From positions 7,175,560-7,239,559 of the forward strand of contig OZ020525.1 of assembly GCA_963971425.1 (NCBI GenBank): a stretch of DNA of 64,000 nucleotides. Reading direction: 5' to 3'. Origin of the DNA: Bryoerythrophyllum caledonicum (Eukaryota > Streptophyta > Bryopsida > Pottiales > Pottiaceae). Made by a program: the position numbers and the translations under genes. Below, piece by piece: positions 13,275 to 48,947 of this stretch (positions within the stretch are counted from its first letter, which is position 1; each line of letters begins with the position of its first letter). A model generated the notes under the pieces. It saw nothing but the letters and a program-made list of their open reading frames with translations, made no database searches and had not been told where the DNA came from.

Positions 13275-14211
13275 AATAAAAATACATGGCAGAACCATAT
13301 CCTCATCATGTTCATAATCTCACTACAAATAGACGCAGAGCTCATATCTACCAAAAAAAACATGCTGATGAGAGTGAAACTAACCTACTATTATACCATC
13401 ATACATCCTAAACCCTATACCGCTCCAGGTTTCTAGAATCTCATCACCTCTTGCAAATTAGGTCGAGGCTGCATGAACGGACGAATCTTGGTGTCCAGAA
13501 GCTTCTTCATGTTGGCAGGGCACAGTTCCGCAGCGTATCCGTTCAGCTTCGTCGCCAGAACCGACGACGCCAGCTCCTCGTCCGAAACGTCTCCCAACAG
13601 CTCCAACAGCTGCGGCTTCCTCCGCAGCTCGAACTTCTGGTGCTCCGCTTCCGCCGGGTAAAACATGCCCAACCGTTGAATCTCCGTCACCACCTCCCGC
13701 TGCTCGCCCAACCTCGCCTGCTCCGCCGCCTTGCTCCTCGACGCCACCTCACCCTCCGCGTCGTCTCGGACGAGGATCACCGACCTGTACTGCGGACCCA
13801 CATCCGGCCCTTGCCCGAACACCTGCGTGGGGTCGTGACTCGCCCAGAAAACCTCCAGCAGGCGCTCGAACGACACCACACTCGGGTCGTACTCCACCTC
13901 CACAACCTCCGCGTGATCGCTCACGCTGTGGTAATCCGGGTTCGCCTTCGACCCACCCGCGTACCCCGCCCTCGTCCTCACCACCCCCGGCAAGCACCCG
14001 AACACCGCCTCCCCGCGCCAGAACGACCCCAGCCCAAACGCCGCAACCTGGGTCGTTCCTCCCGAGATCGCGCTACTTGCCAGCGCTGGGATGAAAACAC
14101 ATGTCACAGCCACCACCCACAGACACGAAGCTCCGCAACTCACCATGCTGCAAAAACTCGTCCCCACAAGTACGAAAGGAAATCAAAAGTGTGTACAATC
14201 AGAAGCTGGAG
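13275..14211. repeat. Segment duplicated at 43675-44657
   Basis: Sequence from aaatacatggcag in the 3' flank of the MSRA5-like gene through its whole coding region to caatcagaagctggagag upstream is present again about 30 kb away. Similarity is high in the coding part and the 3' flank and lower upstream of the start codon. The matched block ends abruptly on both sides. Orientation is the same. Confidence 0.85.
13433..14146 (-). CDS. MSRA5: MSRA5-like protein: secreted MsrA-fold protein lacking the catalytic cysteine
   Basis: A 237-residue single-exon frame. MsrA enzymes reduce methionine-S-sulfoxide. The conserved blocks are present: GSFWRGEAVFG, GVVRTRAGYAGG, DHAEVVEVEYDP, FWASHDPTQ, YRSVILV and MFYPAEAEHQKFE. 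However, the catalytic GCFWG motif reads GSFWR, with Ser41 in place of the active-site Cys. From memory, the plant MSRA5 subgroup shows the same change, so this is probably a conserved feature of the subgroup, and classical reductase activity is doubtful. Cys51 (VFGC) and a C-terminal ELCP cysteine remain. The ATG at 14146 is preferred over an upstream in-frame GTG because it opens a clean signal peptide (hydrophobic VVAVTCVFIP, cleavage near ALASSA), which predicts entry to the secretory pathway. A mutated duplicate lies at 43834-44590. Confidence 0.87.
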   Translation of the reverse strand: MVSCGASCLWVVAVTCVFIPALASSAISGGTTQVAAFGLGSFWRGEAVFGCLPGVVRTRAGYAGGSKANPDYHSVSDHAEVVEVEYDPSVVSFERLLEVFWASHDPTQVFGQGPDVGPQYRSVILVRDDAEGEVASRSKAAEQARLGEQREVVTEIQRLGMFYPAEAEHQKFELRRKPQLLELLGDVSDEELASSVLATKLNGYAAELCPANMKKLLDTKIRPFMQPRPNLQEVMRF

Positions 14212-16089: not shown

Positions 16090-16485
16090 ATCTCCAATGT
16101 CGTGTAAAGAAAGATCGATAACCATAAGAGAGTGAGAGTCCTAACAAACATCAAATAAACGAAAAATATACACTAAAACAAATATACGTAGTACACCCTC
16201 AAGGAGTAACTAGTGAATTACAAGAGTAGTCAAATGTCTCGCACTCTACAAAGGGAGAATCAATGAGTGCAAGTAGTATAAGAGAATGCGGAGCCTTTAC
16301 TAATGATAAACAATCATTTACATAAGAGGTAACTTCACTAAACACTCTTTAACTCACTCACAAAGCTTGACTTGACAAAGACGTCAAGTCAAGGACGTAT
16401 GCAGGGCTATATGCACACATATACAACATCTATTAAGGGTATGAAAAACATCCACATATGAATGTGGTGCGCCGCCGTTGTTGCA
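16090..16485 (-). mobile_element. LTR-like block related to the LTR of the 33.8-41.8 kb retrotransposon
   Basis: Read on the minus strand, 16485 to 16208 matches the 3' half of the LTR at about 41500-41668 (ggcggcgcacc, gttgattctccc, gagtgcg). It is followed directly by the LTR start (ttgagggtgtactacg to ctttacacgac), as at 41669-41771. Relative to that LTR it carries roughly 130 extra bases, which include a perfect 11-bp-arm hairpin (cttgacttgac and gtcaagtcaag, 16366-16393). This is a solo or truncated LTR of a related family in opposite orientation. Confidence 0.6.
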
Positions 16486-28359: not shown

Positions 28360-28637
28360 GTATACCAATGAAATCTCTAATAGGGCAGCCGACATTGGCT
28401 GCCTCTAGAGGACCTCTTAAATGTATACCAAGGAAATCTCTAAAAGGGAAGTCGACATCGGCTGCCTCTAGAGGACCTCTTAAATGTATACCAAGGAAAT
28501 CTCTAAAAGGGCAGTCGACATCGGCTGCCTCTAGAGGACCTCTTAAATATATACCATGGAAATCTCTAAAAGGGCAGCCGACATCGGCTGCCTCTAGAGG
28601 ACCTCTTAAATGTATACCAAGGAAATCTCTAAAAGGG

Positions 28638-28888
28638 CAGCCGACATCGGCTGCCTCTAGAATGTGCAACACGCTCTCGAAAATTTGAAGATATTTCCAA
28701 AATGGTATTACACTTTATTTTTGGACATTGTACGGATGAGTTATCAATGGATGAAGTTCTGAATCTCATAACTTCATCCGCAAATAACTCATTCGTACAA
28801 TGTCCAATAATAAAGTGTAGTACCATTTTGGAAATATCTTCAAATTTTCAAGAGCGTGTTGCACATTCTAGAGGCAGCCGATGTCGGC
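28638..28888. repeat. Core palindrome of the fold-back satellite
   Basis: Arms of about 108 bp (28638-28745 and about 28782-28888) are nearly perfect inverted copies. The centre holds a smaller inverted pair (ggatgaagtt and aacttcatcc). The repeat arrays on each side reverse orientation at this axis. Because of the symmetry, the two strands encode almost the same 60-70-residue peptide (MVLHFI..GHCT..). Confidence 0.9.
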
Positions 28889-32624: not shown

Positions 32625-33819
32625 TCGTCCTGATCCAGGGTAGGGACATCTGGAGGGAGCAATTTGACTTCAGATTCGGGAGAGCCAAATCGGGACAGCT
32701 TGGGCTAGGTGGAGAGAATTAAAAACGGCAGGCTGCAATAGGCCCGAGAAGAAGGCGAGCACTCGTAGCTCATCCGAGGGGCAGCTCGACTGTCGACTGC
32801 GGGCGGAGGCAGCTCATCGGGTTGCGCGATAGGGAGAATAATTGCGTGGGTCCCATACGGGGTAACGTGAGTGACGTGGGAGCGCGAGTGAAGAAGAGCA
32901 CATTTGCGGCAGGGCTTCCAATTGCAAAGGTACCCATAAACCGTGCCGCGGAACCCTATACCGTGCATTTCGAACTCAGATTTTCAGAAGTCCCTGGAGT
33001 TGGATGTTAGAATTTTAGATTTTGCAATTTTCAGTATTTTGCGATTTCGACGATGGATTTGGATTCGTGAAGAAATTATAAGACTAGTGGTATAAAAAAT
33101 AGTTTATCAAAAAAAAATATTTTGCTAGTTTTTTCGTGAGGGCCGAAAACAATCACATGTTTTGTGATCTATAAAAAAAAAAGATAGTGCTAAACTTTGG
33201 GAGTAGATTTCAAATGCAGTGTCACTTGGATGTAAGTGACATTTATGCTTATAGTTAGGGTTTTTGCCATTTGACCTAATTTTAGCATTAGTTTGGCGTT
33301 TGTCGTGATTATCTACCAATGTATGTGATTTCATTGGATGGATAGTGTTTTTAAATACCACGGTCAATCCCCACTACTCCTTTAGTTTTAGACGTTAGGG
33401 GGAACACTTTTAGTGTTTCTTTTTGATTTGCAGGTTTTCCGATTTTGAGGCATCCACTGCAGGCGTGTGCCAGTGGCGTTGTCTCTTTCATTTTCCTGCT
33501 TTCATGTTGTTGGGGGAGAATCCGGTTTTGATTTCTGGATTCTTGTGCGGTACCTCCCCCGTGTTGCGGGCTTATTGCCGGTGTTTTCCGGTGGCCCCAT
33601 TTCTTGTTGTTCCAGTTTGTGATACGGTACCGTAGGGGTGAAGTCGGATTTATGGCCGGCAAGACCTTTCTATGTGGGGGGATGTGGTTGGACCTGTGGT
33701 AGCCGGAGGTGATGACCGGTGATCCACACAACTTGGTGATTTTGCAGGTGCAGGTTGTCCGTTTGTACCCTTACCCTTTAGATAGTATCCATAGATAGAT
33801 CCCGAGGTGGTTTTTGTTT
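32625..33819. other. 5' flank and leader of the methyltransferase retrotransposon
   Basis: A 5' LTR matching the 3' LTR at 41314 is not found here, so the element is 5'-truncated, rearranged or has a strongly diverged LTR. Sequence from about 33430 becomes more GC-rich and is probably the untranslated leader of the element. No primer-binding site could be assigned. Confidence 0.4.
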
Positions 33820-35955
33820 ATGGTGAGTACCTAGAGTCGGTATTACCGCTCTCCCTCACCAAACCACTCGGAGAGTGCTTCCACCATAGACTTTGAGCCA
33901 GGGTCGGATACCGACGAGGCTTTTGAGCCTGTTTCGGCGTTGGATACCGACCGTAGGCTTTCGGTCTGGAGTGTGGGCACGTTTGACGACATGGAGGACC
34001 ATCACCGTCATGTCGTGCGAGACAGGTTCTCGGGACGGGCTGGGGGCATCTCCCTACCCGATTGGCGTCTCCGATTCCAAACTTAGATGAAGGAGAAGCG
34101 CCAGCGGACGCCGTCGTTCAACGATTAGTACGCGTTCGAGCTTTTGCCCCAACATTTGGAGCTGCACGCACTTCAGATATATGGGAGGTGGACCACGCAG
34201 CACGAGGCAGAATTGCGCCCGGTTGAGGAGTATTGGCGCCAGCGTGTGGAGTTGGTCACTACACTCCAGGAGAGTGCGGTTGCTAAACTCTCGACTTCCA
34301 CCGAGGAGCCCAAGGAGGAGGAGAGTTTCCTCGGTGAGGACTCCAAGGGCAAGGGTGTTGCCATTGTGGGCAAACGAGCTGGCATGAGGGCCATGTCTCG
34401 TTTGGCCGTAGCCACACTTGCGGCATTGGTGGCGGTTGACAACCCGCCAACCTTCGATCCTCTGGCGCAGTTCATGGCGCATCTGGAGGTGGAGTACGGG
34501 GGATTTCGGCGCGATTAGATGCACCGCATCTAGGACTTCAGCCGTGAGGAGGAAGACACGCCACGCACCATGTACACACGGTTGGTGCGGTTGGCGGCGG
34601 AGGCTGGTGATGTCTTCACGAAGCGCCAACTTGTGAAGATTTTTATCTCCAAGCTCGAAAAGTGGATGGTAGAGTTGATCAGTCCGCATTTGCTCTTCCG
34701 GTACCACGGCAATGCGACCTTGGCTCAGGCGTTCGCCGAGGTGGAAGCGCTTGACCGGACGTTGGGTGTGAGCGAGGCCACAGACTTGGTCATGTCGCTC
34801 ATGGATGCTCCGAAGCCCAAGAAGCTTGCTACGGCGACTGAAAGTTTGGCAGAAGCACAACCTGAAAAGGTTGTGCATTGTTGGGCTTGTGGAGAGGCCG
34901 GTCACACCAAGGGGGACCCCAACTGTCTGAAGAAGAAGGAGGCAGTGGCGAAGAAGGCCAAGCCCGAGACCGAGGCGGCCAAGCTTACGGAGAAGACTGG
35001 GGGCAAGGGGAAGAAGTCTGTGACATGCTCTCACTGTGGCAAGCCTGGCCACAGTGATGAGAACTGCTTTTCTCTTCACCTGGAGAAGCGCCTAGGATCT
35101 TCGGCTATTGGATCGGATGCCGTGAAGTCACTTCAATCCGAATTGGCGGAGCTGAAGAAGCAGATGAGCGCGATGGCTTCTTTGGGGCAAGTGGCAGACA
35201 CACGGCCTGTGGTGACGGGTTAGGGCTCATCTTCAGCCTTAGATCGCTACTTGTATGGCACTTCGGGGGAGGTGGTGGCTGCGGTTGCCACTCGTGCTCA
35301 GACCATTACAGAGGCGGTAGCACCAGCTACTGTGCCAGGTAGTAGCAGTCGTTCACGCCATGCGGGTTTGCCGGACCACATTGGTCAGTCCCAGCTACCT
35401 CTTTCTTTCAGCATCGCGGATGAGGCTACTTCTACTGCCGCTCCCACTTCGATTCCGATCCCACCGATTTCTTCCAGTCCTGGAGATGTTGCACACACCT
35501 TGGCGTATAAAGTGTTGCAATTGCCAGTGTTTGCTGGTGTGGACTTTCTCACACTGGATTTTCAACCATCCGGTGTATTCCACTTGGCGGGTAGTATGTT
35601 GGAAGGCAAGGTGCCCATTCCGTCGTTGGAGGTGTCACAGGTAGTGACCGCTCCACCCACTGAGGAGGATTTGGTGGCTATGCGAGCCAAGTTGGCGGCG
35701 GAGGCTATTTCCGCGTTTGAGGCCAATGCCACTTCCACACCTATGGAGCAGTCGTCCGGGGATCGGGCCTTGTTCTCTGGAGTAGCTTATTTGTCTGACA
35801 TTGCAGCCCGGTCGGCACGGGAGCGACGTAGTGTGCATCCAGGGGTGGTACGTTTGGTGAATGACGATGGAGTCATGGTGGTAGGCCGTACGGATGGCAA
35901 CTCCACTCGAGCTACCCCCCTACTTGTATGTTGGATTCCGGGGCTTAGCCAGTGA
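33820..35955 (+). pseudogene. gag: Gag polyprotein with two CCHC zinc knuckles, interrupted by six TAG codons
   Basis: The frame opens at the ATG at 33820 and stays in register for about 710 codons with no frameshift. It is broken only by TAG at 33832, 34084, 34126, 34516, 34531 and 35221 before a TGA at 35953. At least two sites look like former Trp in context (RD*MHRI*DFS). The N-terminal part is acidic and Ser/Thr-rich, the middle is capsid-like (TMYTRLVRLAAEAGD, then VELISPHLLFRY), and two knuckles follow: CWACGEAGHTKGDPNC (34879-34926, spacing CX2CX4HX6C) and CSHCGKPGHSDENC (35026-35067, canonical CX2CX4HX4C). A heptad-like segment (LQSELAELKKQMSAM) follows. Gag packages the element RNA in cytoplasmic particles. 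Confidence 0.8.
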
Positions 35956-36310
35956 TGATTGGCAAACAGCTAGCCCAGGATTTGGGTCTAGGTGCTATGG
36001 ACCTCGAGCCTTGTCATTCACGATTGTTACATCGGTTAGGGGCACGGAGAAGGCCATGGGCTACACCCGACATCCGTTGTAGTTGATGTTTGACGTGGGA
36101 TCTGGTCCGTTGTTCTCCCATGTCTCCCTTCAGTGCGCTGTTACTGGCGCCACCAACTACAATATTTTGGTGGGCCAGCAGGGACTATATCCACTTGGAT
36201 TTGGGGTGGATAACTGGACGGAGGAGGCCTGGATTACGCCAGGGTGGTCTGCCGGTGATGGTAGGAAAGAGCTCATCCCCGTAGTCTTCGCAGCTAGCGC
36301 GGTGACTTCG
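35928..36310 (+). pseudogene. Retroviral-type aspartic protease, broken
   Basis: The active-site motif LDSGA lies at 35931-35945, directly followed by an in-frame TAG (35946) and then PVMIGKQLAQDLGL, which matches the flap-side pattern of retropepsins. It is one frame away from gag, with a run of six C just upstream (about 35915-35920) as the likely slip or indel point. The frame shifts again near 36000, where TIVTSVRGTEKAMGY, a TAG at 36080 and TNYNILVGQQGLYPLG continue the domain. The protease would mature Gag and Pol. Confidence 0.65.
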
Positions 36311-36326
36311 ACGACAGACGCTATGT

Positions 36327-37661
36327 TTGGGTGCAGTGCTCTGGCATCAGACTTGCCGTGTGCTTCTTCACTTTTGGAGGAGACATGCATTTATGTCTGT
36401 CGTGAAGGATTCACGCGAGCACCCACCATTGGCAATCCCTGCTCGTCATTGCAAGGATCCGCTTCCGCCGTGGGGGACACCATTGGAGCTCACTTGTCGT
36501 AGTGGAAAGATTGTGGATGCTCTTGATGCTCCACTGCCTTCAGTGGACTCTTCCACTCCGTTGTTGGCTCGTACTATTCAGTGGCGACGACCGGATGAGG
36601 GTATTACCCTCGTGGATTTATTTGCCAGTATTGGTACGGGGCTCACGGCTGTGTTGGAGGCCGGGCTCAAGGTACGACGGTATATCCACGTGGATAGTGG
36701 CTTTGCAGCCAACCGTGCCGCTCACCATCACATTCAGCGTCTTCTGGCGTTGTATCCAGAGCAGTTACCATCTTCTGCGATTCGAGGGTGTTTTGGCAAG
36801 TTGCCACGTGATGTAACGTTGATCAGTGAGGATGATCTTCGCCGGTTAGGTCACGTGGACTTGGTGATTGCCGGATGGCCTTGCCAAGGCCATTCTCGGG
36901 CGGGAAGTGGACGTGGCTTGGATGATCCACGGTCGGGTCTCTTTGCGGATTTGCTCAGGCTCGTCGAGTGGTGGATTACCCACCAATCGACACCACCGGG
37001 GTACATTTTTGAGAATGTACCCCCATTGGGGAATACACGGACCAAAGTGCGTGAGGATGGGGCGTACATCCATCACCTTCTTGGTCCCCCTACGTTTGTT
37101 GATGCCACGGCGTTGGGATCTTACGCCCATCGGCCACGTTGGATTTGGACCAACATGGCATCATCCACGACGCTCACTTCTGCACTTGCTCAAGTATGAC
37201 GGCCCGTGCGCCGTGAGGTCGATGACATTTTAGACGACCACTGTGTTTCCACGGAGGTTACGAAGGATGATGAGCCACCATTGGCGGTGGTCAACCGCAT
37301 TGGTTTCACTCAGGGGGCATTTCCCACTTTGATGTGCTATCCAGGCTTTTTTGCCTTCAGGACACGCGGTCCGGGCATGGTTTGGGATTCTTCTTCCCAA
37401 ACTTTCGAGGAGCCTTCTGCCGATGAGAGGGAGCGGGCGATGGGCTTTTTGACAGGCACCACCGCCGCACCGGATATCTCTGAGGGCCAACGCCGTTATT
37501 TGTTGGGTCAAGCCATTGACCTCAACACCCTTGTTTGGATATGTGGCCTCTGTTTCGCCGCTCGACGCCGTTCGAGTGACCATCCACGCGTGCTGGAGGC
37601 AGACTCTGATGGTCAGAGGCAGCGGTGCCACATCTCACAGAGATCGAGGAAGTGGAGTTGA
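36327..37661 (+). pseudogene. DNA cytosine-5 methyltransferase domain inside the retrotransposon
   Basis: The catalytic motifs of C5-cytosine methyltransferases appear in order: motif I ITLVDLFASIGTG (36603 on) binds S-adenosylmethionine; motif IV VIAGWPCQGHSRAG carries the catalytic Cys in Pro-Cys-Gln (36879-36887); motif VI is IFENVPP (Glu-Asn-Val at 37011-37019); motif VIII is ATALGSYAHRPRWIW; motifs IX-X follow downstream (ERERAMGF..G, then QRRYLLGQAIDLNTLVW, to about 37540). A single in-frame TGA (37197-37199) splits it, with CGA as the likely ancestor. The GTGL after motif I and the S-AHR-R-W block are closer to DNMT3/DRM-type enzymes than to bacterial Dcm or MET1. It lies between protease and RT, so it would be made as part of Pol. 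It would methylate DNA, possibly the element's own cDNA. Confidence 0.85.
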
Positions 37662-37851
37662 TTTTTCGTTTGAAGAGGCATGCAGCTGAGGAGCTTCGTG
37701 CTCAGCGTGTCTTTGCAGCCTTGGCAGAGGACTTTGGCCGTGAGGATGCTCGGGATATCTTTTCCCAATTTATCATCACGACACGAGATTTTCTGTAGAT
37801 CTTGTGAGTGAGGGGTCTGGGGGCATTAATGCCCTCTCTGCTACCAAATAG

Positions 37852-40450
37852 CAATCACCGGCCGTGCCGGTACGCGGTGAGTCTTCTACGATGGAGATGG
37901 AGACCACGGAGTTTGATGATTGGCCTCTGGATTTGGGGCCACATCTTACAGGTGCCGAGGCACGAAGGGTACGAGCATTTATACATTCGTATCGTAGTTG
38001 TTTTGCCTTTAGTCTCAATGATTTGGAGGGCTGTATAGGCAAGCCGATTCACATTCAGTTGGAGGATGACCACCCGATCTTCCGACGACCGTACAAGCTC
38101 AGTCTCTCTAAGAAAGTTGGGGTTCAGACTCGTTGTCAGGAGTTGTTGGCCGCCAGTTTGATTGAGCTCTCCAACGGCGAGTACGCTTGTGCCACAGTGA
38201 TGCCATCGAAGAAGGACATCTTTGGCAACTGGACGGAGAAGCGGATGTGTGGGAATTATAGATCGGTCAATCGTAAGACCAAGTCGGATCGGTATCCCAT
38301 GCCCATGCCAGAGGAGTTGTTTGATGCGGTGGGACACAACAGAGTATTTAGTACTCTGGATTTGCGGTCCGGTTACCACCAGTTACCATTGATGGTGGAA
38401 GACCGGGTAAAGACCACATTCTGGGGAGTTGATCTGGATGGGAGAGATCAACTCTACCATTGGAAGTTTCTTCCATTTGGCCTCAAGAACGCACTCGCTG
38501 AGTTTCAGAGGGTGATGGACCCGATGTTGACCGGTTTACCGTTTGTCCAATGCTATATTGATGATGTTATCATTTTTAGTAGCACCCCACAGGAGCATAT
38601 GAGGCATCTTCAGGCGGTGTTTGAGAGGTTACGACAGTGGGGATTGCGCTTGCACCATGGCAAGTGCAAGTTCTTCCAAGATCGGTTGCCATATTTGGGA
38701 CATATGATTGTTCCAGGAGGTCTTGGCGTGCAGCAGGCGAAGGTTGACGCGCTGCAGAAGATCCCAGCCCCAATCGACGTGTCACGGCTCAGAGCTTTTC
38801 TTGGCCTTGCGAATTACTATCGCCGATTTGTCAAGAACTTCAGCTTGATTGCCAAGCCGTTGACTATTTTCACAGGGAAGGATCAGCCATGGACTTGGGG
38901 ACGGGAGCAGCAGCAGGCATTTGCTACTTTGAAGCTGAAGCTCGGTTCAGCGCCTATACTACGGCGTCCAGATGCTACACGACCTTTCCACTTGCACACG
39001 GATTGGAGTGCGATAGGATTGGGAGCCGTGTTGACTCAAAAGGATGATGAGGGACATGAGTACGTTGTCGCGTTTGCTTCTAGGAGCAACAACAACGCGG
39101 AGTCCAACTATTCGTCCTATGAGGAGGAGGCCTTGGCCGCGGTTTGGGCCATAGCTCATTTTAGGCCCTACTTGTATGGGCAGCGTTTTACTTTAGTGAC
39201 CGACCAACAGCCTTTGAAGTGGCTCATGGAGTCTGACAAGCTTACTGGCAAGCTTGCCAGGTGGGCTTTGTTGCTTCAGGAGTATGATTTTGAGGTTGTA
39301 CACCGGGCGGGCATCACTAAGTTGGATGCGGATAGTCTATCTCGCAATCCAAGTCCATCGGAGGAGGATTTGATTGGTGCCAGGTGGCATGGGGACTGTG
39401 ACAGGGAGTCAGTCCCGGGGTGGCATGCAGCAGCCTACCTCACATTGATGTCCGAATCCACATCGGCGTTGCCTGATATGGCAGTGGATGAGGAACCGGA
39501 GAAGGCCCAGGTTGTTAGCGGCGTGTGGGAAGACGTTCCAGTCTTGCACAAGCTGCAACATGGCACACTTCTGTCCGCTCTTTCGGCCATGGAGCGTGAT
39601 CGAGTTGGACACCGGATAGCGAGGTTCCGTTGGGAGAACGGCCTTCTATTTCGGTTGTGGCCGGATGGAACTAGGCGCATAGTTCCCAGACCAGATCATA
39701 GGGCTTCGTTGGTACGGCAGGTACACGAAGACCTTGGTCATTTTGGCGTGCGGCGCACTCATTCGATGTTGCGCAGCCAATATTGGTGGACCAGCATGTA
39801 TCAGCAAGTCGCCACGTACGTTTCACGGTGTGAAGTATGTGATCGGGTCAGATCCAACTTCAACACCTTGTCACCACAGTTGCAGCCTTTGTCCATCATG
39901 GGTTTGGGCTACCGTTGGTCTCTGGATTTTGCCGGGCCACTTGTTGTCACCCCACGTGGAGCCAAGTACGTGTTGGTGATGGTGGAGCACTTCAGCAAGT
40001 GGATTGAGCTTGAAGCACTACCACAGAACTCCTCGGAGTTGGCGGCCATGGCATTCTTTGATCGGGTGCTGGCTCGTTTTGGAGCCCCAACTGAGGTGTT
40101 GATAGACCAATGACGGGAGTTTTTGAGGGTTTTCGAGGCTTTGTGCACCAAGGCGTTGATTGACCACCGTACCACTTCTCGGGATCATCCGGAAGCGGAC
40201 GGTTTGGCGGAGCGTGTGGTTCAGACCGTCAACCGTGGACTACGGAAGTATGGATTACTTCAGGGTAGCCACCGTGATTGGGATCTGATGATACCATGGA
40301 TCGCCATGGGATATCGGTTTAGCCGGCAGGCCTCTTTGGCCACTTTTAGTCCGTATCAGTTGTTGTACGGACGGGAGCCAATTCTACCGAGTTCTGTACG
40401 GGAGAAGTTAGCTCCAGTGGTGGATTTGGATGATCCAGAGGTCTGGATCT
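37852..40450 (+). pseudogene. pol: Pol: reverse transcriptase, RNase H and integrase
   Basis: One frame runs from 37852 past 40450, with an in-frame TGA at 40111 and TAG at 40450. RT: VMPSKKD, MCGNYRSVN, FSTLDLRSGYHQL, FLPFGLKNALAEFQR (the usual Pro is Leu) and the catalytic YIDD at 38553-38564. RNase H: HTDWSAIGLGAVL, YEEEALAAVWA, VTDQQPLKWL and LDADSLSR. Integrase: HHCC zinc site (HEDLGHFG..CEVCDRV), then the DDE triad in WSLDFAGP, TEVLIDQ (just before the TGA) and HPEADGLAERVVQ. It copies element RNA into DNA and inserts it. Apart from the stops the domains are complete and well conserved, which argues for recent activity of the family. Confidence 0.88.
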
Positions 40451-40452
40451 AG

Positions 40453-40995
40453 TGTCTGCGTGACCAAGCGGAGTTCTTCAAACGGGCCATGCCAATGGCC
40501 ATGGAGAATTTATCCATCGCTCAGCACCGTGACATGTTACGATACGCTCGCATTCGCAGCGGCGCTTATCGACCTCAGTTGCGGCGTTTCTCCACTGGGG
40601 ATTACGTTTATTTGCAGCATGAGGCACCTACGACGTTGGACGTCAAGGCTCCGCGCACTATTCTTCGTGTGAAGGATGTGTTGCCTAGTGGCATCTTGTT
40701 GCTGGAAGGCAAAGATGGCCGGGAGTGTCGTGAGCACTCCAAAAACTGTGCGCCCTGCCATTTGCCCATTGATGGCTCCGTGCATCCTGAGTTGGCCGTT
40801 GTGCCACAGGGTCTTCCGTGTTTAGTGTGTGGTGAGAAGAAGGGTGTGGCTACCATGTTGCTTTGTGACCATTGCTAACGTGGTTGGCATATGGCTTGCC
40901 TGACACCGCCTCTTTCTACTCTATCGTCCGGGGATTGGACTTGTCCTTGTTGTCGGAGGTCTTCGAGTCATGTTTCACCCAATGAAACAGCTTGA
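40453..40995 (+). pseudogene. Integrase C-terminal module with a PHD finger
   Basis: This continues the Pol frame. An SH3/GPY-like segment (FSTGDYVYLQHE..ILRVKDVLPSGILLLEGKDG) is followed by a C4HC3 PHD finger at 40819-40954: CLVC, CDHC, RGWH, C and WTCPCC. A TAA (40876-40878) falls inside the finger at a position where CAA (Gln) is plausible. The frame ends at the TGA at 40993. Many gypsy elements carry a chromodomain here. PHD fingers read histone H3 tails, so this could have directed integration to particular chromatin. That role is inferred. Confidence 0.72.
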
Positions 40996-41313
40996 ATTCC
41001 TCGTGGACTTGTCAGTGTGTGGTGCGTTGGTATCCAGTTGGAGTTTCCTGGTTTCAATTCAAGGATAGGCAACGTGGAGATTGACCAAGGAACTGGCAAC
41101 AAAGTTTCCTAAGGCGATTAAAGATGGGGCTCACATTGCACCCGGCCTACCCTCTCTTTGTTACTTCTCCATATGCTTATTGATTTGGCAACGAGCGACA
41201 TCTTCATCTGAATGCGTATAGTTGTTGCAGCGACATTACCGTGGGTTCAGTCTTGTTAGTGCTTTATGGTCCTAGCTGGATAGAGGGTCTCTTTATCCGC
41301 TAGGGGGGGCACT

Positions 41314-41771
41314 TGAGGGTGTATTACGTATACTTGTTTTAGTGTATGTTTTTCGTTTATTTGATGTTGGTTAGGACTCTCGATCTGTTGTGGTTATCGA
41401 TCTTTCTTTACACGACAACTGTCACGGGACGTGGCATCGAGGGCCTCTCCGTATCGTAGTTTTAGCGTAGATTAGTTTGTTACTAATCTATGTGTATTTA
41501 GGGACATATGGCGGCGCACCCTATTCATCCGTGGATGAGTTTCATCCACTTAGGGTTCTGCGTGTGTGCGTATAGGGCTCTACATTCTCTACTTTAGTTG
41601 CACTCGTTGATTCTCCCCTTGTGGAGTGCGTGTCGCTTGACTTCTTGTGGAAAACACATGTGATTCCTTGAGGGTGTATTACGTATACTTGTTTTAGTGT
41701 ATGTTTTTCGTTTATTTGATGTTGGTTAGAACTCTCGATCTGTTGTGGTTATCGATCTTTCTTTACACGAC
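41314..41771 (+). repeat. 3' LTR with internal 103-bp direct repeat
   Basis: It starts directly after the polypurine tract with tgagggtgtattacg. The first 103 bp (41314-41416, to ctttacacgac) recur at 41669-41771 with one change. The intervening part contains ggcggcgcacc and gttgattctcccc. The same junction occurs in the minus-strand relative at 16090-16485, so the repeat is a property of the LTR family or an old tandem LTR. The exact 3' end of the LTR is not fixed. Confidence 0.65.
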
Positions 41772-41834
41772 ATCAAATTGAGCCTTGTGGCTCTAATTGG
41801 TCCTTGGTTATTGGTTAGTGGTATTGATTAAGGG

Positions 41835-41873: not shown

Positions 41874-42611
41874 TACTACTAAACCTATGTCTGGTGGACA
41901 TTGGCTTAGAGGTGGAACAAACAGACATTCTATTCACCGGCTCTTTCGGAGACTGGAGTTCTTTGTATATATAGTGGTTTACCATAAGGATGTTACGGGC
42001 CAAGTTAGCTGCAATTTCTCCACGAGATGGCTGCACTTTGAACATGGCCATGGGCTCAAGTTGCATAAATCTCCATGATTGAATCTTCATGGATTTTGAC
42101 TCACAAATGCCATATTTAGAAAAAATTGTTAGCTCACATAGCCAAGATCAACTAAACTTTGTCGATAATCTTCACCACCCAAGCTACCACTTCCCAAAGG
42201 CCAGCTGTCAATTAGCTAAAAAGATGAATCCTAGTTTTGGCATTCAAAAAAACGTAATAAATAATTTTTTTGTCACCTGCACTACTCCTTACCTAGAAAC
42301 CGTAGCCACATACTAAAAAATTGGAAAAATACTCAAAAATGGCTATGGCAAATTGCCAAGGATGGGGGGAGGGTCAGATTGGGGAGCGCGGTGTAGCGAC
42401 GGTGCCTGCGTGCCTAGCCAACCCGCTAATTGGCCCTACACTAAATAATATGGAGGGCTCCGCATTGTGAGAGGTAGTACAGATGCTCTAAAGTGGAATT
42501 TTGGAATAGAACCGACACCGCCCGCCCAGCGGACCGGGACGCCAGCTCCACTTTGTGGTGGAAGAAAAAGTGCCCAAACCAATGCCAACCCCGTGCCCCA
42601 ATGGAGATGCT
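41874..42611. other. Intergenic, no gene seen
   Basis: Short frames at 41887-42078 (+) and 41851-42090 (-) have no motif. The end (about 42595-42615) contains ccccaatggagatgctctta, which looks like a MITE terminus of the gagcatctcca type, but I did not find its partner. Confidence 0.35.
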
Positions 42612-42811
42612 CTTACGCCGGGTGAGGCCTGGGCGGTAAGGCTGTGAGATTCTTACGCAAGGTGAGGCCTGGGCGGTAAGGCTGTGAGATTCTTACGTAG
42701 GGTGAGGCCTGGGCGGTAAGGCTGTGAGATTCTTACGTAGGGTGAGGCCTAGGCGGTAAGGCTGTGAGATTCTTACGTAGGGTGAGGCCTGGGCGATCAG
42801 GCCGTGAGATT
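42612..42811 (+). repeat. 40-bp tandem repeat, five units
   Basis: Exactly five 40-bp units starting cttacgtagggtgaggcctg and ending ggctgtgagatt, nearly identical, with the fifth most diverged. A TATAAAA box follows at 42854-42860 after a partial unit-like phrase (ggggcctcaccctataaaa), so the array may be part of a promoter, for instance in an LTR. No convincing gene follows. Confidence 0.9.
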
Positions 42812-43177
42812 CCCTCCACGTCGGGCATTTCACGGCCCACTGGGGCCTCACCCTATAAAAAACATCAAACCCCTCTAGAAAGCATTCGGAACATACCAGT
42901 GAATTTCAGACACCACCAAGACAATTCACAGTGCACCAAGCCTCACATGGCCATAACTCCCAAAGACAACATCTTGAGCAGCGAAAATAAATCACAAAGA
43001 CAACAAGAAGACGAAACTGGAAACAAATCAAATCATATTTGATACATTTTCAACTCAGTAAAGAGTAGTCTTTCAATTCTGATAAGCCCTTAACCCTAAA
43101 GTTCGGCATTTAGGCTGACCAAACTAGATCTGAGGCCCTAAATACTTCCAACTTTCTAAAGGGATGTGAATTGCTAA
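42812..43177. other. Possible promoter downstream of the array; no gene
   Basis: The TATAAAA at 42854 sits in a GC-rich-to-AT-rich transition. The short plus-strand frame that follows has no domain. Whether it is transcribed is unknown. Confidence 0.3.
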
Positions 43178-43674: not shown

Positions 43675-44657
43675 GAAATAAAATACATGGCAGAACCACA
43701 TCCTCACCATGTTCATAATCTCACTACGAATAGACGCAGAGCTCATATCTACCAAAAAAAACATGCTGATGAGAGTGAAACTAACCTACTGTTATACCAT
43801 CATACATCCTAAACCCTATACCGGTCCAGGTTTCTAGAATCTCATCACCTCTTGCAAATTAGGTCGAGGCTGCATGAACGGACGAATCTTGGTGTCCAAT
43901 AGCTTCTTCATGTTGGCAAGGCACAGTTCCGCAGCGTATCCGTTTAGCTTCGTCGCCAGAACCGACGATGCCAACTCCTCATCCGAAACGTCTCCCAACA
44001 GCTCCAACAGCTGCGGCTTCCTCCGCAGCTCGAACTTCTGGTGCTCCGCCTCCGCCGGGTAAAACATGCCCAACCGTTGAATCTCCGTCACCACCTCCCG
44101 GTGCTCGCCCAACCTCGCCTGCTCCGCCGCCTTGCGCCTCGACGCCACCTCACCCTCCGCGCCGTCTCGGACGAGGATCACTGACCTATACTGCGCACCC
44201 ACATCCGGCCCTTGCCCGAACACCTACGAGGGATCGTGACTCGCCCAGAAAACCTCCAGCAAGCGCTCGAAGGACACCACACTCGGGTCGTACTCCACTT
44301 CCACAATCTCCACGTGATCGCCCACGCTGTGGTAATCCGGGTTTGCCTTCGACCCACCCGCATACCCCGCCCTCGTCCTCACCACCCCCGGCAAGCACCC
44401 GAACACCGCCTCCGTGCGCCAGAACGACCCCAACCCAAACGCCGCAACCTGGGTCGTTCCTCCCGAGCCCTCTTCGATCAGTCTGATTGCCACCGCTGGG
44501 ATGGCTAGGCATGGTGCAGCCACCACCTACACCCATGAAGCTCCATACCTCACCATATTGCAAAATCTCCCTCCCTCTACAATTCTCAAGATCCCCACAA
44601 GCATAGAGCCAAATGTGAATGTCTCTTAATGTGTGCACAATCAGAAGCTGGAGAGTC
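43675..44657. repeat. Duplicate of 13275-14211
   Basis: It has the same order and orientation as the first copy: 3' flank, MSRA5-like coding region and a short upstream part. The upstream part has diverged most and includes small insertions. Confidence 0.85.
43834..44590 (-). pseudogene. MSRA5-like pseudogene (duplicate of 13433-14146)
   Basis: The minus-strand sequence keeps the motifs of the intact copy (GSFWRTEAVFGC, GYAGGSKANPDYHS, FWASHDP, FGQGPDVG, MFYPAEAEHQKFE), again with Ser for the catalytic Cys. It has two disabling changes. The CAG codon after HDPS is TAG (complement at about 44224-44226), and the signal peptide segment carries an in-frame TAG nine codons after the ancestral ATG. 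Otherwise the frame is intact over most of its length, so the loss is recent. Like the parent it has no intron, so duplication as DNA or by retrocopying cannot be told apart from structure alone. Confidence 0.85.
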
Positions 44658-44780: not shown

Positions 44781-45000
44781 TACACTAAACATCGCATTTA
44801 GTGTAGCGCCCAATAAATGACTTGTAAATGCGATAAGTTTAGGGTCTTGATGCCAATTTTTACCAAGAGCACAACTCTCTATAGTATTCAAATAAGAGGA
44901 TCATCATAAACATAGTTGGTAAAAATATTCACTTAAAGTAAAACTTATAGCATTTACAAGTCATTTACTGGGCGCTACACTAAATGCGATGTTTAGTGTA
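44781..45000. mobile_element. TA-flanked MITE with self-palindromic ends, short form
   Basis: A 220-bp element with about 60-bp TIRs that differ at only a few bases. They run from the cactaaa/tttagtg palindrome at each tip through gtagcgcccaataaatgac to gtaaatgc. TA lies at both outer edges. The near-perfect TIRs suggest recent insertion. It shares its tips, but little of its interior, with the element at 6832-7347. Confidence 0.82.
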
Positions 45001-45915
45001 GTATACCCATGACATGTACTGGGGATAAGATGCAGGGGAACGGTGCGGAGGTAATTCACGTGTAGATGAGTGGTCGGTCTCTGGGACCTTGGTTTGACTC
45101 CTCTAAACCCTAAAGTCTAAACCCATAAACCCTCTCCTTCCTGCAGAGGACCTGTTTGGTGAGGAGAGGAGAGAGGAGAGAGGAGAGACACAGACTCAGA
45201 CAGAGCTTTCCATTGCTACACCTTGCCTCGGGAGGTTGCTCCCGTACTAGCATCACGGCATCAGACTCACCGCTCTGTCAGCTTTCCATCGGCGTATTGC
45301 GCTTGCGTTTTGGTGTCGTATCGTGCTGACAACTCAAGGTGCGGAATCGCTTCCTGGATTGATCTCTGCTCTCGTTGTGGTTGTGCCCTCTTACTGGCGG
45401 TGTTGTGGAGAGGATGGGTTTTCTCATTGAGGCGCTGGATGAGAGACTTGGAGTGGAATTTGTCGGGCGTGATGTTTGTGGTTTGGAGTGAAGAGAGGCG
45501 ATTTGTGAGGGTTATTAGCGCGCTGGCGAGACGGGAGTGGGAGAGTGGGTTCATGATCGGGGTTTGGCGTGGAGGTTTTTGGTTTTGGGGGTTTAGGGTT
45601 TAGAGTAATATCAACAGATAGTCTTCATGTTAGCCTTCTCTCAAGGTTTTTGATGTCATATGAGAGAGGTTTTGAAGTTTTAGAATATGGAAGTGGGTTT
45701 AGAGTAATATTAACAGATAGTCTTCATGTTAGCTCTCTCTCAAGGTTTTTGATGTCATATGGAAGTGCTTTTGAAGTTTTGGAATGCGAAAGTATGTGGC
45801 CACTCTGTTGTAACAGTCCTATGCTACCTTTGTTTGTTCTTGTTTGACGCCATAGTTTGCAATCCGAGCAGGTTGGCTGTCAACACTTGAGGTTTTCCAC
45901 TTTGAATCTGGTGCC
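45001..45915 (+). promoter_or_regulatory. Glycyl-tRNA synthetase upstream region with telo-box and GA tract
   Basis: AAACCCTAA at 45105-45113 is a plant telo-box, an element common upstream of translation-related genes. A run of gaggaga repeats at 45161-45205 looks like a 5' leader GA tract. A 99-bp tandem duplication follows (45599-45697 and 45698-45796). A leader intron is likely because the coding start is about 800 bp downstream of the telo-box, possibly ending at the gagcag near 45870. None of this was tested against transcripts. Confidence 0.5.
45599..45796. repeat. 99-bp tandem duplication in the leader region
   Basis: Two units, each starting tttagagtaatat and containing cagatagtcttcatgttag and caaggtttttgatgtcatat, with a few differences. 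It lies between the telo-box and the start codon of the synthetase gene. Confidence 0.88.
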
Positions 45916-48900
45916 ATGGCAACGGAGGAGGTGGTCGCAATGACCAGGGAGGAGTCGGAAGCCTTCAAGCTGGCGGTGAAGAACACCTTAGAGCGCAGGC
46001 TGTTCTACATCCCCAGCTACAAGATCTATGGTGGCGTGGCGGGGTTTTACGACTACGGTCCATGGGGCTGTCAGGTGGAGACGAACGTGCTCAACCTGTG
46101 GCGCCAGCACTTCGTGATGGAGGAGGACATGTGGGAGATTCGGTGCCCCTGCGTGACTCCCGAGGTCGTGCTGAAAGCCTCTGGCCATGTCGACAAGTTC
46201 ACCGATCTCATGGTGAAAGACGAGAAGCTGGGGACTTGCTTCCGGGCTGACCACCTGCTGAAGGATTTTCTGACCAAGGCGTTGGAGGAGGACGCGAAAC
46301 TGGTCACGGAGACTCCACTGTCGGTTGTGGAGAAGAAGGATAAGAAGAAGGCGGCGGAAAAGAAGAGGGAGCCGCTGACGCCTGAGAAGAAGAAGGAGAT
46401 GCAGACTGACCTCGCAGGTTTGGATGAATTCTCAGGTCCCGAGTTAGGTGCGAAGATCAAAGCGTATGGCATCAAGTCTCCGGAGTCTGGCAACGACCTT
46501 TCGGATCCTTATCCTTTCAATCTCATGTTCTCCACGCAGATTGGTCCCACTGGCACATCGCAAGGGTAATTACCACATCGTAAGGGTAAAGACCTCGTTG
46601 TGATAGTCGTTCTTTTTGAATGTGCATTATGTATGGCATTTCACTAATGGGGATCCTTGGTTGTTTGTTGATCAACAGGTACATGAGACCAGAGACAGCG
46701 CAAGGCATATTTGTCAACTTCAGGGATCTGTATTACGAGAGTGGTAATAAACTGCCTTTCGCAGCAGCTCAGATTGGTTCAGCTTACCGCAATGAGGTAC
46801 TATTTGCTTCGCATCTCTATGGTTGCATTTTCGGCGCAAGATCAGTTTCCGGCGTTAATATCTTGTTTCTTTGAATCTGCGAAGGCCTTCATCTGATAAA
46901 CGTTTTGTTATTCGATGTATTCTGATTATCCCAGAGCATGTGTCAATGTTGGAGAATTTCAAAATACTCGCTAAAGTATCTTACAGTGCGTGGTGTTCAA
47001 TCCTCAATAACCTAGCTGTGTGATGTGAACAACAGATTGCACCACGACAAGGTCCCATGCGGGTAAGGGAGTTTACTATGGCAGAAATTGAACATTTTGT
47101 TAATCCAGATGACAAGTCCCATTCAAAGTTTAAGAATGTGGCAGACTTGGAGATCTATTTGTTCCCTCGGGACGAGCAGATGGCCTTGAAGAGCCATGTC
47201 AAAATGCGCATAGGTGATGCTGTTTCAAAGGTGCTAATATCTGACGTTTTGACAATTTAGCAATATTTACATTTAGGAATGTGAGTTATCTGAGGCAGAA
47301 GTTGGTATAGATTTTACAGATATCTGATGGTTTTCATTTTATTCCGTGTGGTTTCTGTACAGGGTATAGTTGACAATGAAACGCTGGGTTATTTCATTGC
47401 AAGGACTTACTTGTTCTTGACTAAACTGGGAATCAACAAGAATCGCCTCAGATTCCGTCAACATCTTGCTAATGAGATGGCTCATTATGCCCAAGATTGT
47501 TGGGATGCTGAAATTGAATGCTCGTATGGCTGGTTTGAGTGTGTCGGTTGTGCAGACCGATCTGCTTATGATCTAAAAGCTCATACGGTATGTGTTTCTA
47601 GTGTATTTGGTAGTGCTGCTGAATCATCTCTGTCGTCTCATTTCTGTACTTCGTGTTAGTTGCATGCTAAACCAGTTGTTGATTGTAGAGTCACACTTTT
47701 CAACCTTGCCTGATTTTTGGCTAATCGCAGGCAAAGAGTGGTCATGAACTTACTGCCTACGAGGCGTTCGCTGAACCGAAAGACGAACTGGTACGTGGTA
47801 CTTTCGTTTCTTATTATCTGGTTATTCGATTCTTGCAGTGTATTGCTGCTGAGTATCGTGCGCTTCTCCTGCCTTGATACAATCTTTTTGTTGTGTATGC
47901 AGAAACTAACAATTGTACCAAACAAGAAGGTGTTGGGTAAGGAATTCCGAAAGGACCAGAAAATTCTCTCAGAATCTCTGGAGGTGAGTAAACTTACAAA
48001 TTTCTCTTCGATAAACTTATGTGTAGATCAATATGAATTGAATTTCAAGCTGAACGTGAAACACCATCATAATGGGTCTACAATAATGTCCATGTCGTAT
48101 AGAGTAAGGTTTTATCTAGACACGTTTAGGATTTGATCAGGACAAACTTTTCGCTGAATTAGTTCATATTTCTTCGTGATCATCAGACACTACCGGATAC
48201 AAATGAGAGCATGGATTAAACATCAGTTGAGTGCTATTTTTGCCTGTGTTTTATTTTGATCACTGAGGAACTATGTTACAAATGAACTCTCAACTGCCGT
48301 AGGCTATGACGAGGGAAGAGGCGCTGGCTCTCAAAGCGGAGCTGGAAGAGAAGGAGAAAGTGACCTACAAGGTTTGCACGACAAGTCAAGAGTTCCAGCT
48401 CACGAAGGACATGGTGGCAATATCTGAGAAACTGGAGAAATCTCATGGTCGAAACTTTACTCCTTCTGTTATCGAGCCGTCGTTTGGTATTGGCCGCATC
48501 ATGTACTGCCTGTACGAGCACTGCTTCTACACACGGCCTGCCGTGCCAGGGGAGCAAGTAACCAGTGTATTCCGGTTCCCTCCCATTGTAGCGCCTATAA
48601 AGTGCACGGTGTTCCCCCTGATGCAGCGCGAGGTTCTCAACGTCAAAGCCAAGAACATGTCAAATGGGCTAACCAGGGCAGGCGTGTCCAATAAGTTGGA
48701 CATCACAGGCCGGTCGATTGGTAAGCGGTATGCAAGAACCGATGAAGTTGGCATTCCGTTTGCTATCACAGTGGATTTTGATGAAGGTGTTACAGTACGA
48801 GAACGGGATTCCAAACAGCAAATCAGGGTTCCGGATGACGAAGTCGTCGATGTTGTCCGTGATCTTGCAAGTGGCTCAGCCATGTGGGAAGACGTTACAG

Positions 48901-48947
48901 CCAAGTACCAGCTGGTTACTGTGGCAGACACGGAGGCTGACTCATAG
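45916..48947 (+). CDS. Glycyl-tRNA synthetase, eukaryotic alpha2 type (class II)
   Basis: Charges tRNA-Gly with glycine, probably in the cytosol and possibly also in organelles. Seven exons: 45916-46565, 46679-46796, 47036-47230, 47363-47587, 47731-47790, 47903-47983, 48303-48947. All introns are GT-AG, and the product is 657 residues. The N-terminal core carries [20 protein letters not shown] and [15 protein letters not shown]. Next come RPETAQGIF (220-228), class II motif 2 ([17 protein letters not shown], to 269), [20 protein letters not shown] and motif 3 ([13 protein letters not shown], 499-511). The anticodon-binding domain follows (about 540-640, with [13 protein letters not shown]). 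The start lies in a strong gccATGG context. The N-terminal WHEP domain that I recall from Arabidopsis and human homologues is missing, unless an upstream exon encodes it. A Lys-rich insertion ([20 protein letters not shown]) lies at about residue 138-158. Confidence 0.95.

Follow-up and report, generated by a model that had tools for sequence, protein, structure and literature searches.

Organization of the locus

The window analyzed here is a 64,000-nucleotide stretch of the genome of the moss Bryoerythrophyllum caledonicum (contig OZ020525.1, positions 7,175,560 to 7,239,559). It contains a decayed Ty3/Gypsy retrotransposon in which a DNMT3-type C5-cytosine methyltransferase (MTase) is encoded between the protease and the reverse transcriptase (RT), as the original prediction had proposed (Table 1). 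The window copy was compared with L001, a 9.3-kb contig that is 87% identical to it over 7.2 kb and in which both frames are open.

Table 1. Features of the window. Positions count from its first nucleotide.
Feature	Position	Strand	Basis and remarks
B3 domain	10302-11798		
MsrA gene	13436-14182		Single frame; best named match moss Ceratodon purpureus, 76%
Separate terminal fragment (A-B) from a related element	16098-16453	-	
Ty3/Gypsy element	32.9-41.8 kb	+	Pfam and blastn comparison
5' untranslated remnant of the element	32942-33819	+	blastn matches to L001 7811-7959 and L001 8233 onward
ORF1 region (Gag-protease-MTase), with stops and frameshifts	33820-37851	+	Nucleotide identity to L001
Gag zinc knuckle (35023-35067) and similar preceding Cys/His motif	34873-35068	+	PF00098
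Aspartic protease, frameshifted, approximate limits	35850-36400	+	Active-site LDSGA at about 35931; alignment to L001
DNMT3-type C5-cytosine methyltransferase	36570-37622	+	PF00145 and homology to same-genome relatives; TGA at 37197-37199
In-frame UAG CAA UCA at the ORF1/ORF2 boundary	37849-37857	+	Type I readthrough motif UAG-CAR-YYA
Reverse transcriptase	38032-38871	+	PF00078, E = 2.9e-29
RNase H	38872-39321	+	PF17917, E = 7.7e-38
DDE integrase (H2C2 and rve)	39622-40491	+	PF17921, E = 6.1e-18; PF00665, E = 8.4e-7
PHD finger, Pol C terminus	40804-40956	+	PF00628, E = 4.3e-10 in L001; stop at 40876-40878 in the window copy
Polypurine tract CTAGGGGGGGCA	41300-41311	+	Adjoins B1 in the copies displayed; 1-2 base differences in some
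Repeat B1, 106 bp, GACA end	41312-41417	+	
Repeat A2, starting TGTC	41420-41666	+	Shorter than the ~353 bp of younger copies
Repeat B2, forming the element's right end (GACA)	41667-41772	+	99% identical to B1; joint GATTC/CTTGAGGG

The order Gag, protease, RT, RNase H and integrase, with an integrase of the DDE type, is that of Ty3/Gypsy elements. In the Pfam searches on which this assignment is based, the Gag knuckle (E = 0.0015; 19 bits, just under the cut-off of 20.8) and the protease (Asp_protease_2, E = 7.8e-4 on L001 ORF1) lie below the cut-offs, and the Cys/His motif preceding the knuckle was recognized by direct reading. Nucleotide identity to L001 in the ORF1 region is 74% at 33383-34496 and 87% from 34382 on. 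The left terminal repeat, A1, was not found in the window copy by blastn comparison with L001, and positions 30-46 kb of the window contain no plain pair of long terminal repeats (LTRs).

The window copy is dead, because it has accumulated at least nine premature stops and five frameshifts: these were counted over two frames in a comparison with L001 (34400-41100). The integrase region has stops at 40111-40113 and 40450-40452. The single TGA of the original prediction thus describes the MTase domain, and not the element. Similarly, the interval first assigned to the enzyme, 36327-37661, includes the MTase, but its first part (36327-36569) consists of the end of the protease and a linker, which in this copy lie partly in a different frame. 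Cytosines of L001 are replaced by T in the window copy at a fraction of 0.10 of CG, 0.10 of CHG and 0.065 of CHH sites, and in the reverse direction, from window C to L001 T, at 0.09, 0.09 and 0.06, respectively. C-to-T changes are therefore 1.5-1.6 times commoner at CG and CHG than at CHH in both elements compared, a bias that is compatible with ordinary host methylation and not specific to the enzyme of the element.

A bacterial or contaminant origin of the window was rejected on the basis of a plant B3-domain frame and of the MsrA gene, whose nearest named match is from a moss. The next named matches of MsrA by score are from Sphagnum fallax (63%), Riccia (64%) and Physcomitrium (65%), with environmental sequences of 66-77% identity between. 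Two similar frames, at 43878-44483 and at 13477-14091, the latter antisense over the MsrA gene, perhaps reflect a duplicated or retrocopied methionine sulfoxide reductase gene. Tandem arrays lie at 28360-28661 (63-bp unit, 4.8 copies) and, about 0.8 kb past the right end of the element, at 42611-42812 (40-bp unit, 5.1 copies). A 60-bp inverted repeat at 44781-45000, whose arms are 97% complementary and lie 100 bp apart, may be a small DNA transposon; it separates the element from frames at 45856-48944, which contain an anticodon-binding domain and which we take to be glycyl-tRNA synthetase.

The methyltransferase is of the DNMT3 type

The translated piece 36306-37199 matches PF00145 with E = 2.6e-12, and homology to same-genome relatives, spanning residues 1-351 of P0001, sets the limits of the domain given in Table 1. 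In common nomenclature, its motifs follow the linear order I, IV (PCQ), VI (ENV), VIII (HRPRW) and X. The predicted presence of all catalytic motifs in order was thus correct as to order, while motif I is altered in the window copy. The linear arrangement is shared with DNMT3 and differs from that of DRM enzymes, in which the motif order is permuted.

A profile of 37 family members, ranked against solved structures only, matched DNMT3A best (E = 4.7e-24), followed by DNMT3B, DRM (7e-14), DNMT2 (2e-8) and bacterial enzymes. Within this ranking DNMT3 is the closest group, ahead of DNMT1, DNMT2 and the bacterial enzymes. Motifs IV and VI align in the profile, as the prediction implied. A search of NCBIfam returned only a sub-threshold dcm match. 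In the alignment of the 37 sequences, a conservation level of 90% is reached by all three PCQ residues of motif IV and, in motif VI, by E and V but not by N; the Klebsormidium-like sequences P0071 and P0076 read EHV in motif VI. All five motif patterns are exact in 9 of 12 copies with long ORF1 frames, and the other three differ in one or two patterns. The identity of the locus as a DNMT3-type MTase in a Ty3/Gypsy element is near certain, and the MTase of the family is probably an active DNA-modifying enzyme.

The host DNMT3 gene was not identified among the PF00145 matches listed for this genome, because transposon copies fill most of that list. One other locus, G000:C14:16016358-16017317, encodes a full-length C5-methyltransferase in a single frame of 370 codons with a PF00145 match (E = 2.4e-62) far stronger than that of any transposon copy; it may belong to the host, have been acquired by transfer or represent contamination.

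Coding organization

In the moss copies and in L001, the MTase is the final domain of ORF1, which encodes Gag, protease and the DNMT3-type enzyme. ORF2, encoding RT, RNase H, integrase and a PHD finger, starts directly after the stop codon in the same frame, following UAG-CAA-UCA. The sequence TAG-CAR-YYA was found at this place in 29 of 30 distinct sequences, and the remaining one had no match there (36 of 37 rows matched when seven repeat fetches of the same copies are included). In tobacco mosaic virus, UAG-CAR-YYA serves as the type I readthrough motif (PMC3542737). Since it closes ORF1 before this motif, the MTase is probably made at the level of Gag; if the motif works here, Pol would be made only by readthrough. 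Conservation of the motif is by itself weak proof of readthrough, because the copies share recent ancestry. Fourteen ORF1 proteins from metagenomes (P0233-P0241, P0243-P0246 and P0249) end 77-139 residues past the MTase, at a stop or at the contig end. The UAG stop is not universal, because in other relatives (P0256, P0257, P0259, P0262, P0263, P0271-P0274 and P0278) MTase and RT share one frame.

Chromoviruses carry a chromodomain in the place where the PHD finger terminates ORF2 here; at the integrase C terminus of this element no chromodomain was found with Pfam at E <= 0.01. The nearest solved PHD fingers include those of CHD4, PHF12, UHRF1, KMT2D, KDM5A/B and PHF21A, several of which read the unmodified histone H3 tail. 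In animal DNMT3 enzymes, an H3 reader (ADD) and the MTase are coupled in one protein.

The element forms a young and constrained family

A search of the moss genome (437 Mb in 894 contigs) showed that at least 112 places encode the MTase domain, among those scored of 2266 first-look candidates. A genome search with PF00145 found at least 123 places among those scored of 1053 first-look candidates, many of them in open frames of about 1360-1371 codons; because these match another part of the model, the genome apparently contains a second MTase subfamily. An RT search that made no use of the MTase listed 138 places, and in 53 of the best 61 a listed MTase lies 0.5-3.5 kb upstream on the same strand. 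For the other eight, no MTase is listed within 3.5 kb; one of these, on C8, has one at 3572 bases, and the rest may be truncated or have an MTase that ranked below those scored.

Eighteen copies, chosen by MTase match and largely for long frames, were fetched. ORF1 is open over exactly 1353 codons in nine of them, and in three both ORF1 and ORF2 (1047 codons) are open at full length. The order protease-MTase-RT is confirmed in relatives. The terminal repeats A1 and A2, compared at 340 sites in 12 copies, differ at 0, 1, 1, 1, 1, 1, 2, 2, 3, 4, 4 and 10 sites; this near-identity indicates recent insertions and thus a young family.

The MTase is under purifying selection, less strict than that on RT and integrase. 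Between L001 and six moss copies its dN/dS is 0.06-0.13, with bootstrap upper bounds of 0.115-0.192, and pooled pairs of ten copies within the genome give a pN/pS of 0.17. In three copies measured throughout, dN/dS is 0.06-0.09 for the MTase, 0.03-0.04 for RT, 0.01 for RNase H, 0.02 for integrase and 0.12-0.17 for the PHD finger. For the window copy compared with L001, the values are 0.11 (MTase), 0.13 (RT) and 0.05 (integrase); synonymous change far exceeds non-synonymous change, so this lineage was constrained for most of its history.

Relatives in land plants and algae

The protein search with the MTase, in which the in-domain TGA was entered as X, scored 7999 candidates and returned 111 proteins at E <= 0.01, the top match being 85% identical. 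Two of the 111 are from the liverwort Calypogeia fissa, and the two weakest resemble ordinary bacterial enzymes. When the length limits were raised, a second search returned 55 proteins, including P0255, P0258 and P0261 from Marchantia polymorpha, P0251 from Calypogeia and P0274 from Klebsormidium nitens (39% identity). Relatives are also present in metagenomes; a scan of viral contigs found none. P0093 (EukProt) is a gene model that joins the same type of methyltransferase to a PHD finger, and represents a domesticated protein or else a transposon fragment from which Pol was spliced out.

L001 itself (CADCWO010000201.1, 1-9285) is binned in a 'Synechococcales' metagenome-assembled genome (MAG) and has an exact terminal overlap of 127 bp, as from a collapsed repeat. 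P0005 is labelled as an Obscuribacterales DNA methyltransferase. We infer that both are plant transposon contigs mis-binned into MAGs, and public MAGs seem to carry such elements as false bacterial methyltransferases.

The MTase occupies one of two positions in these relatives: before RT (slot 1; moss, liverwort and Klebsormidium) or, in slot 2, between RNase H and integrase. Quick trees, computed without bootstrap, were made for MTase, RT and integrase; the MTase tree comprised 43 of 77 segments of at least 290 residues, after near-copies were dropped, with K. nitens and human DNMT3A. A single branch of this tree splits the slots (24 vs 13 rows, SH-aLRT 99), and the split is weaker in the RT tree (8 vs 5 rows, 75) and in the integrase tree (4 vs 13 rows, 86). 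P0274 groups with the rows that have the MTase before RT, with DNMT3A as the only outgroup. In the first tree, in which MTase-only rows formed their own group, slot 1 needs six changes and slot 2 two, because these rows sit inside both slots. One move between Pol positions and two separate captures are both compatible with these trees.

DNMTs on retrotransposons of dinoflagellates and Klebsormidium have been reported (de Mendoza et al. 2018, PMC5890265), so the precedent named in the prediction is real. KnitGypsy-Dnmt3 of K. nitens likewise has a linear DNMT3-type MTase in a Gypsy element, intronless and under purifying selection, and its repeats are arranged as in DIRS (Fig. 4 legend; PMC5890265). 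The moss element differs in its land-plant host, in its many young copies and in sequence (~39% identity). In K. nitens P0274, the MTase also precedes RT, but the two share one frame, whereas UAG-CAA-UCA separates them in the moss copies; the PHD finger of the moss element was not found in P0274, which is partial. The available part of PMC5890265 contains no mention of 4-bp target duplications, a self-primer or the terminal joint for KnitGypsy-Dnmt3. SymbioDIRS-Dnmt3 elements also carry a DNMT3 domain in Pol, with two domain orders within the group, but they are DIRS elements with a tyrosine recombinase, in contrast to the DDE integrase and target duplications of the moss element (PMC5890265). 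An orchid Ty3/Gypsy element is another plant Gypsy element with an acquired nucleic-acid-modifying domain, in that case an RNA (m6A) demethylase instead of a DNA methyltransferase (PMC9289625).

One paper states that land plants lack such elements and offers a reason (PMC6338049). No mention of a bryophyte case was found in the available parts of PMC5784723, PMC6453930 and PMC7466625, and among the titles and abstract openings searched, we found no earlier paper on such elements in mosses or liverworts. The at least 112 moss places and the relatives in Marchantia and Calypogeia extend the known range of retrotransposon DNMTs from Klebsormidium to land plants, and the possible land-plant occurrence raised in the prediction is thereby supported.

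Element ends suggest an unusual insertion route

Both ends could be mapped in 22 of 24 copies. All 22 start with A (T(G/A)TC...), and at the right end 18 have B-A-B and four a single B; exact 4-bp target duplications flank 20 of them. The ends are thus not a pair of plain LTRs but have the arrangement A...B-A-B or A...B. A stretch resembling a primer-binding site (PBS) after A1 pairs with A around positions 182-194. The pairing extends over 13 nt in 12 of 16 copies and over 16 nt in L013, but over 10, 8 and 11 nt in L017, L025 and L026, with those of L017 and L025 no better than shuffles; L001 retains a 13-nt pairing with a compensatory change. The polypurine tract directly precedes B1. Because this tract precedes B and the PBS follows A, the LTR defined by replication signals is B-A, and the inserted DNA is cut at the B/A palindrome GACA-gc-TGTC.

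If such LTRs were joined end to end, the joint would be expected to read exactly CTTTC/CTTGAGGG. A genome-wide search with a pattern for this U5 type, allowing 0-25 bases between and no mismatch, found 31 A-B joints, 29 of them exact and the other two with one extra base; with the pattern reversed as a control, there was no match. Two of the 31 are in one copy (G000:C202:2074-2566), 464 bp apart and downstream of one MTase, which seems to have an extra A-B unit in tandem at its right end. The joint of L012 contains 93 bp of its own MTase, inverted and 100% identical, and a truncated B, as end-joining with filler would leave.

These features suggest that the element integrates from a 2-LTR circle that is opened within the LTR, at B/A. 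The main difficulty of this model is the absence of copies opened at the other B/A site of the circle: random opening should produce A-B-A...B as often as A...B-A-B, yet none of the 22 mapped copies has B at its left end, and none of the 31 joints lies upstream of a listed MTase (29 are downstream and two have no listed MTase). The mostly exact joint could instead be inherited and not remade, the short form A...B can equally well come from B1/B2 recombination, and B1 and B2 are too uniform between copies to show re-templating in each cycle. We therefore put forward the full sequence of events only tentatively, as somewhat doubtful: reverse transcription would be self-primed on an LTR of the form B-A, the circle joint would be U5/CTTGAGGG, and integrase would open GACA-gc-TGTC and insert A...B-A-B with a 4-bp duplication, while the Gag-level DNMT3-type enzyme would methylate the intermediate and the PHD finger would steer it.

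DIRS and Ngaro elements have split direct repeats, and the moss element shares their A...B-A-B arrangement; it differs in its rve integrase, TG...CA ends and 4-bp duplications, and Pfam searches of L001 matched rve and no tyrosine recombinase. Tf1-type LTR retrotransposons are self-primed, with a PBS right after the 5' repeat that is complementary to a stretch inside the repeat, as in the moss element; the terminal arrangement differs, and self-priming in the moss is read from the sequence. Foamy virus integrase cleaves palindromes in 2-LTR circles and thus also acts on circular cDNA, but its palindrome is the LTR-LTR junction, whereas that of the moss element would lie inside the LTR (PMC1180852).

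Possible roles of the methyltransferase

We consider it likely that a Gag-level MTase methylates the cDNA of its own element in the particle, and that integrase and the PHD finger insert pre-methylated DNA. In this scheme, the UAG would be read through in a minority of translations, so that most MTase would be the tail of Gag-Pro; it would enter the particle with Gag, be freed by the protease and methylate the double-stranded cDNA de novo. Integrase would then insert the methylated DNA under the guidance of the PHD finger, which would read the histone H3 tail. The new copy would arrive bearing the self mark of the host, and would be protected and quiet enough to be tolerated; copies escaping silencing would carry the family on. 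The sequences show the enzyme family, its conservation and its position, and from there packaging, substrate and benefit are inferred; for the narrower proposition that the cDNA is the main substrate we see an even balance of probabilities. When expressed in yeast, the MTases of SymbioDIRS-Dnmt3 methylate CG de novo (PMC5890265). Against the scheme, activity is not known for any enzyme of the present clade: yeast with the KnitGypsy-Dnmt3 domain showed no methylation, a result its authors regard as inconclusive, as DNMT3B failed too (PMC5890265).

The enzyme might instead act in trans, with its host or sibling copies as the target, either silencing the family as a form of self-limitation or shaping host methylation. 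DNMT3 kinship and the many potential enzyme sources in the genome agree with such an activity, and slowed transposition has been discussed as a benefit (PMC5890265). Effects on unlinked loci would, however, bring little advantage to a single copy, yet the domain is kept at low dN/dS, and its position at the end of Gag-Pro suggests packaging; we regard action in trans as unlikely. The same position would place the enzyme beside genomic RNA, and an RNA substrate was raised for SymbioLINE MTases (PMC5890265), but the closer kinship with DNMT3 and DRM than with DNMT2 makes methylation of the packaged genome improbable. A role in nucleic-acid binding or particle structure, with catalysis unused, would fit the retention of a whole domain in the Gag-side frame, the altered motif I of the window copy and the incomplete conservation of the motif VI asparagine; the exact motif patterns in most long-ORF1 copies and the conserved residues of motifs IV and VI speak against it, and we judge it very improbable. 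Finally, the dead window copy taken alone could be a functionless one-off, left by the insertion of a single host DNMT3 gene into an old element. This was rejected in view of the number of MTase places, many in long open frames under low dN/dS, the MTase beside most of the best RT places, and the relatives in Marchantia, Calypogeia, Klebsormidium and metagenomes, and its probability is negligible.

Implications

Silencing of transposons by cytosine methylation is a textbook arms race, and an element that makes its own de novo methyltransferase turns this arms race round. If the circle reading is true, the DIRS-like ends arose independently in an element with a DDE integrase, as a by-product of integrating circles. 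The termini also reopen an old question of retrovirology, whether a DDE integrase can use circular DNA. With its young, open copies, the moss provides a host in which methylation of particle cDNA, readthrough and insertion preference can be measured.
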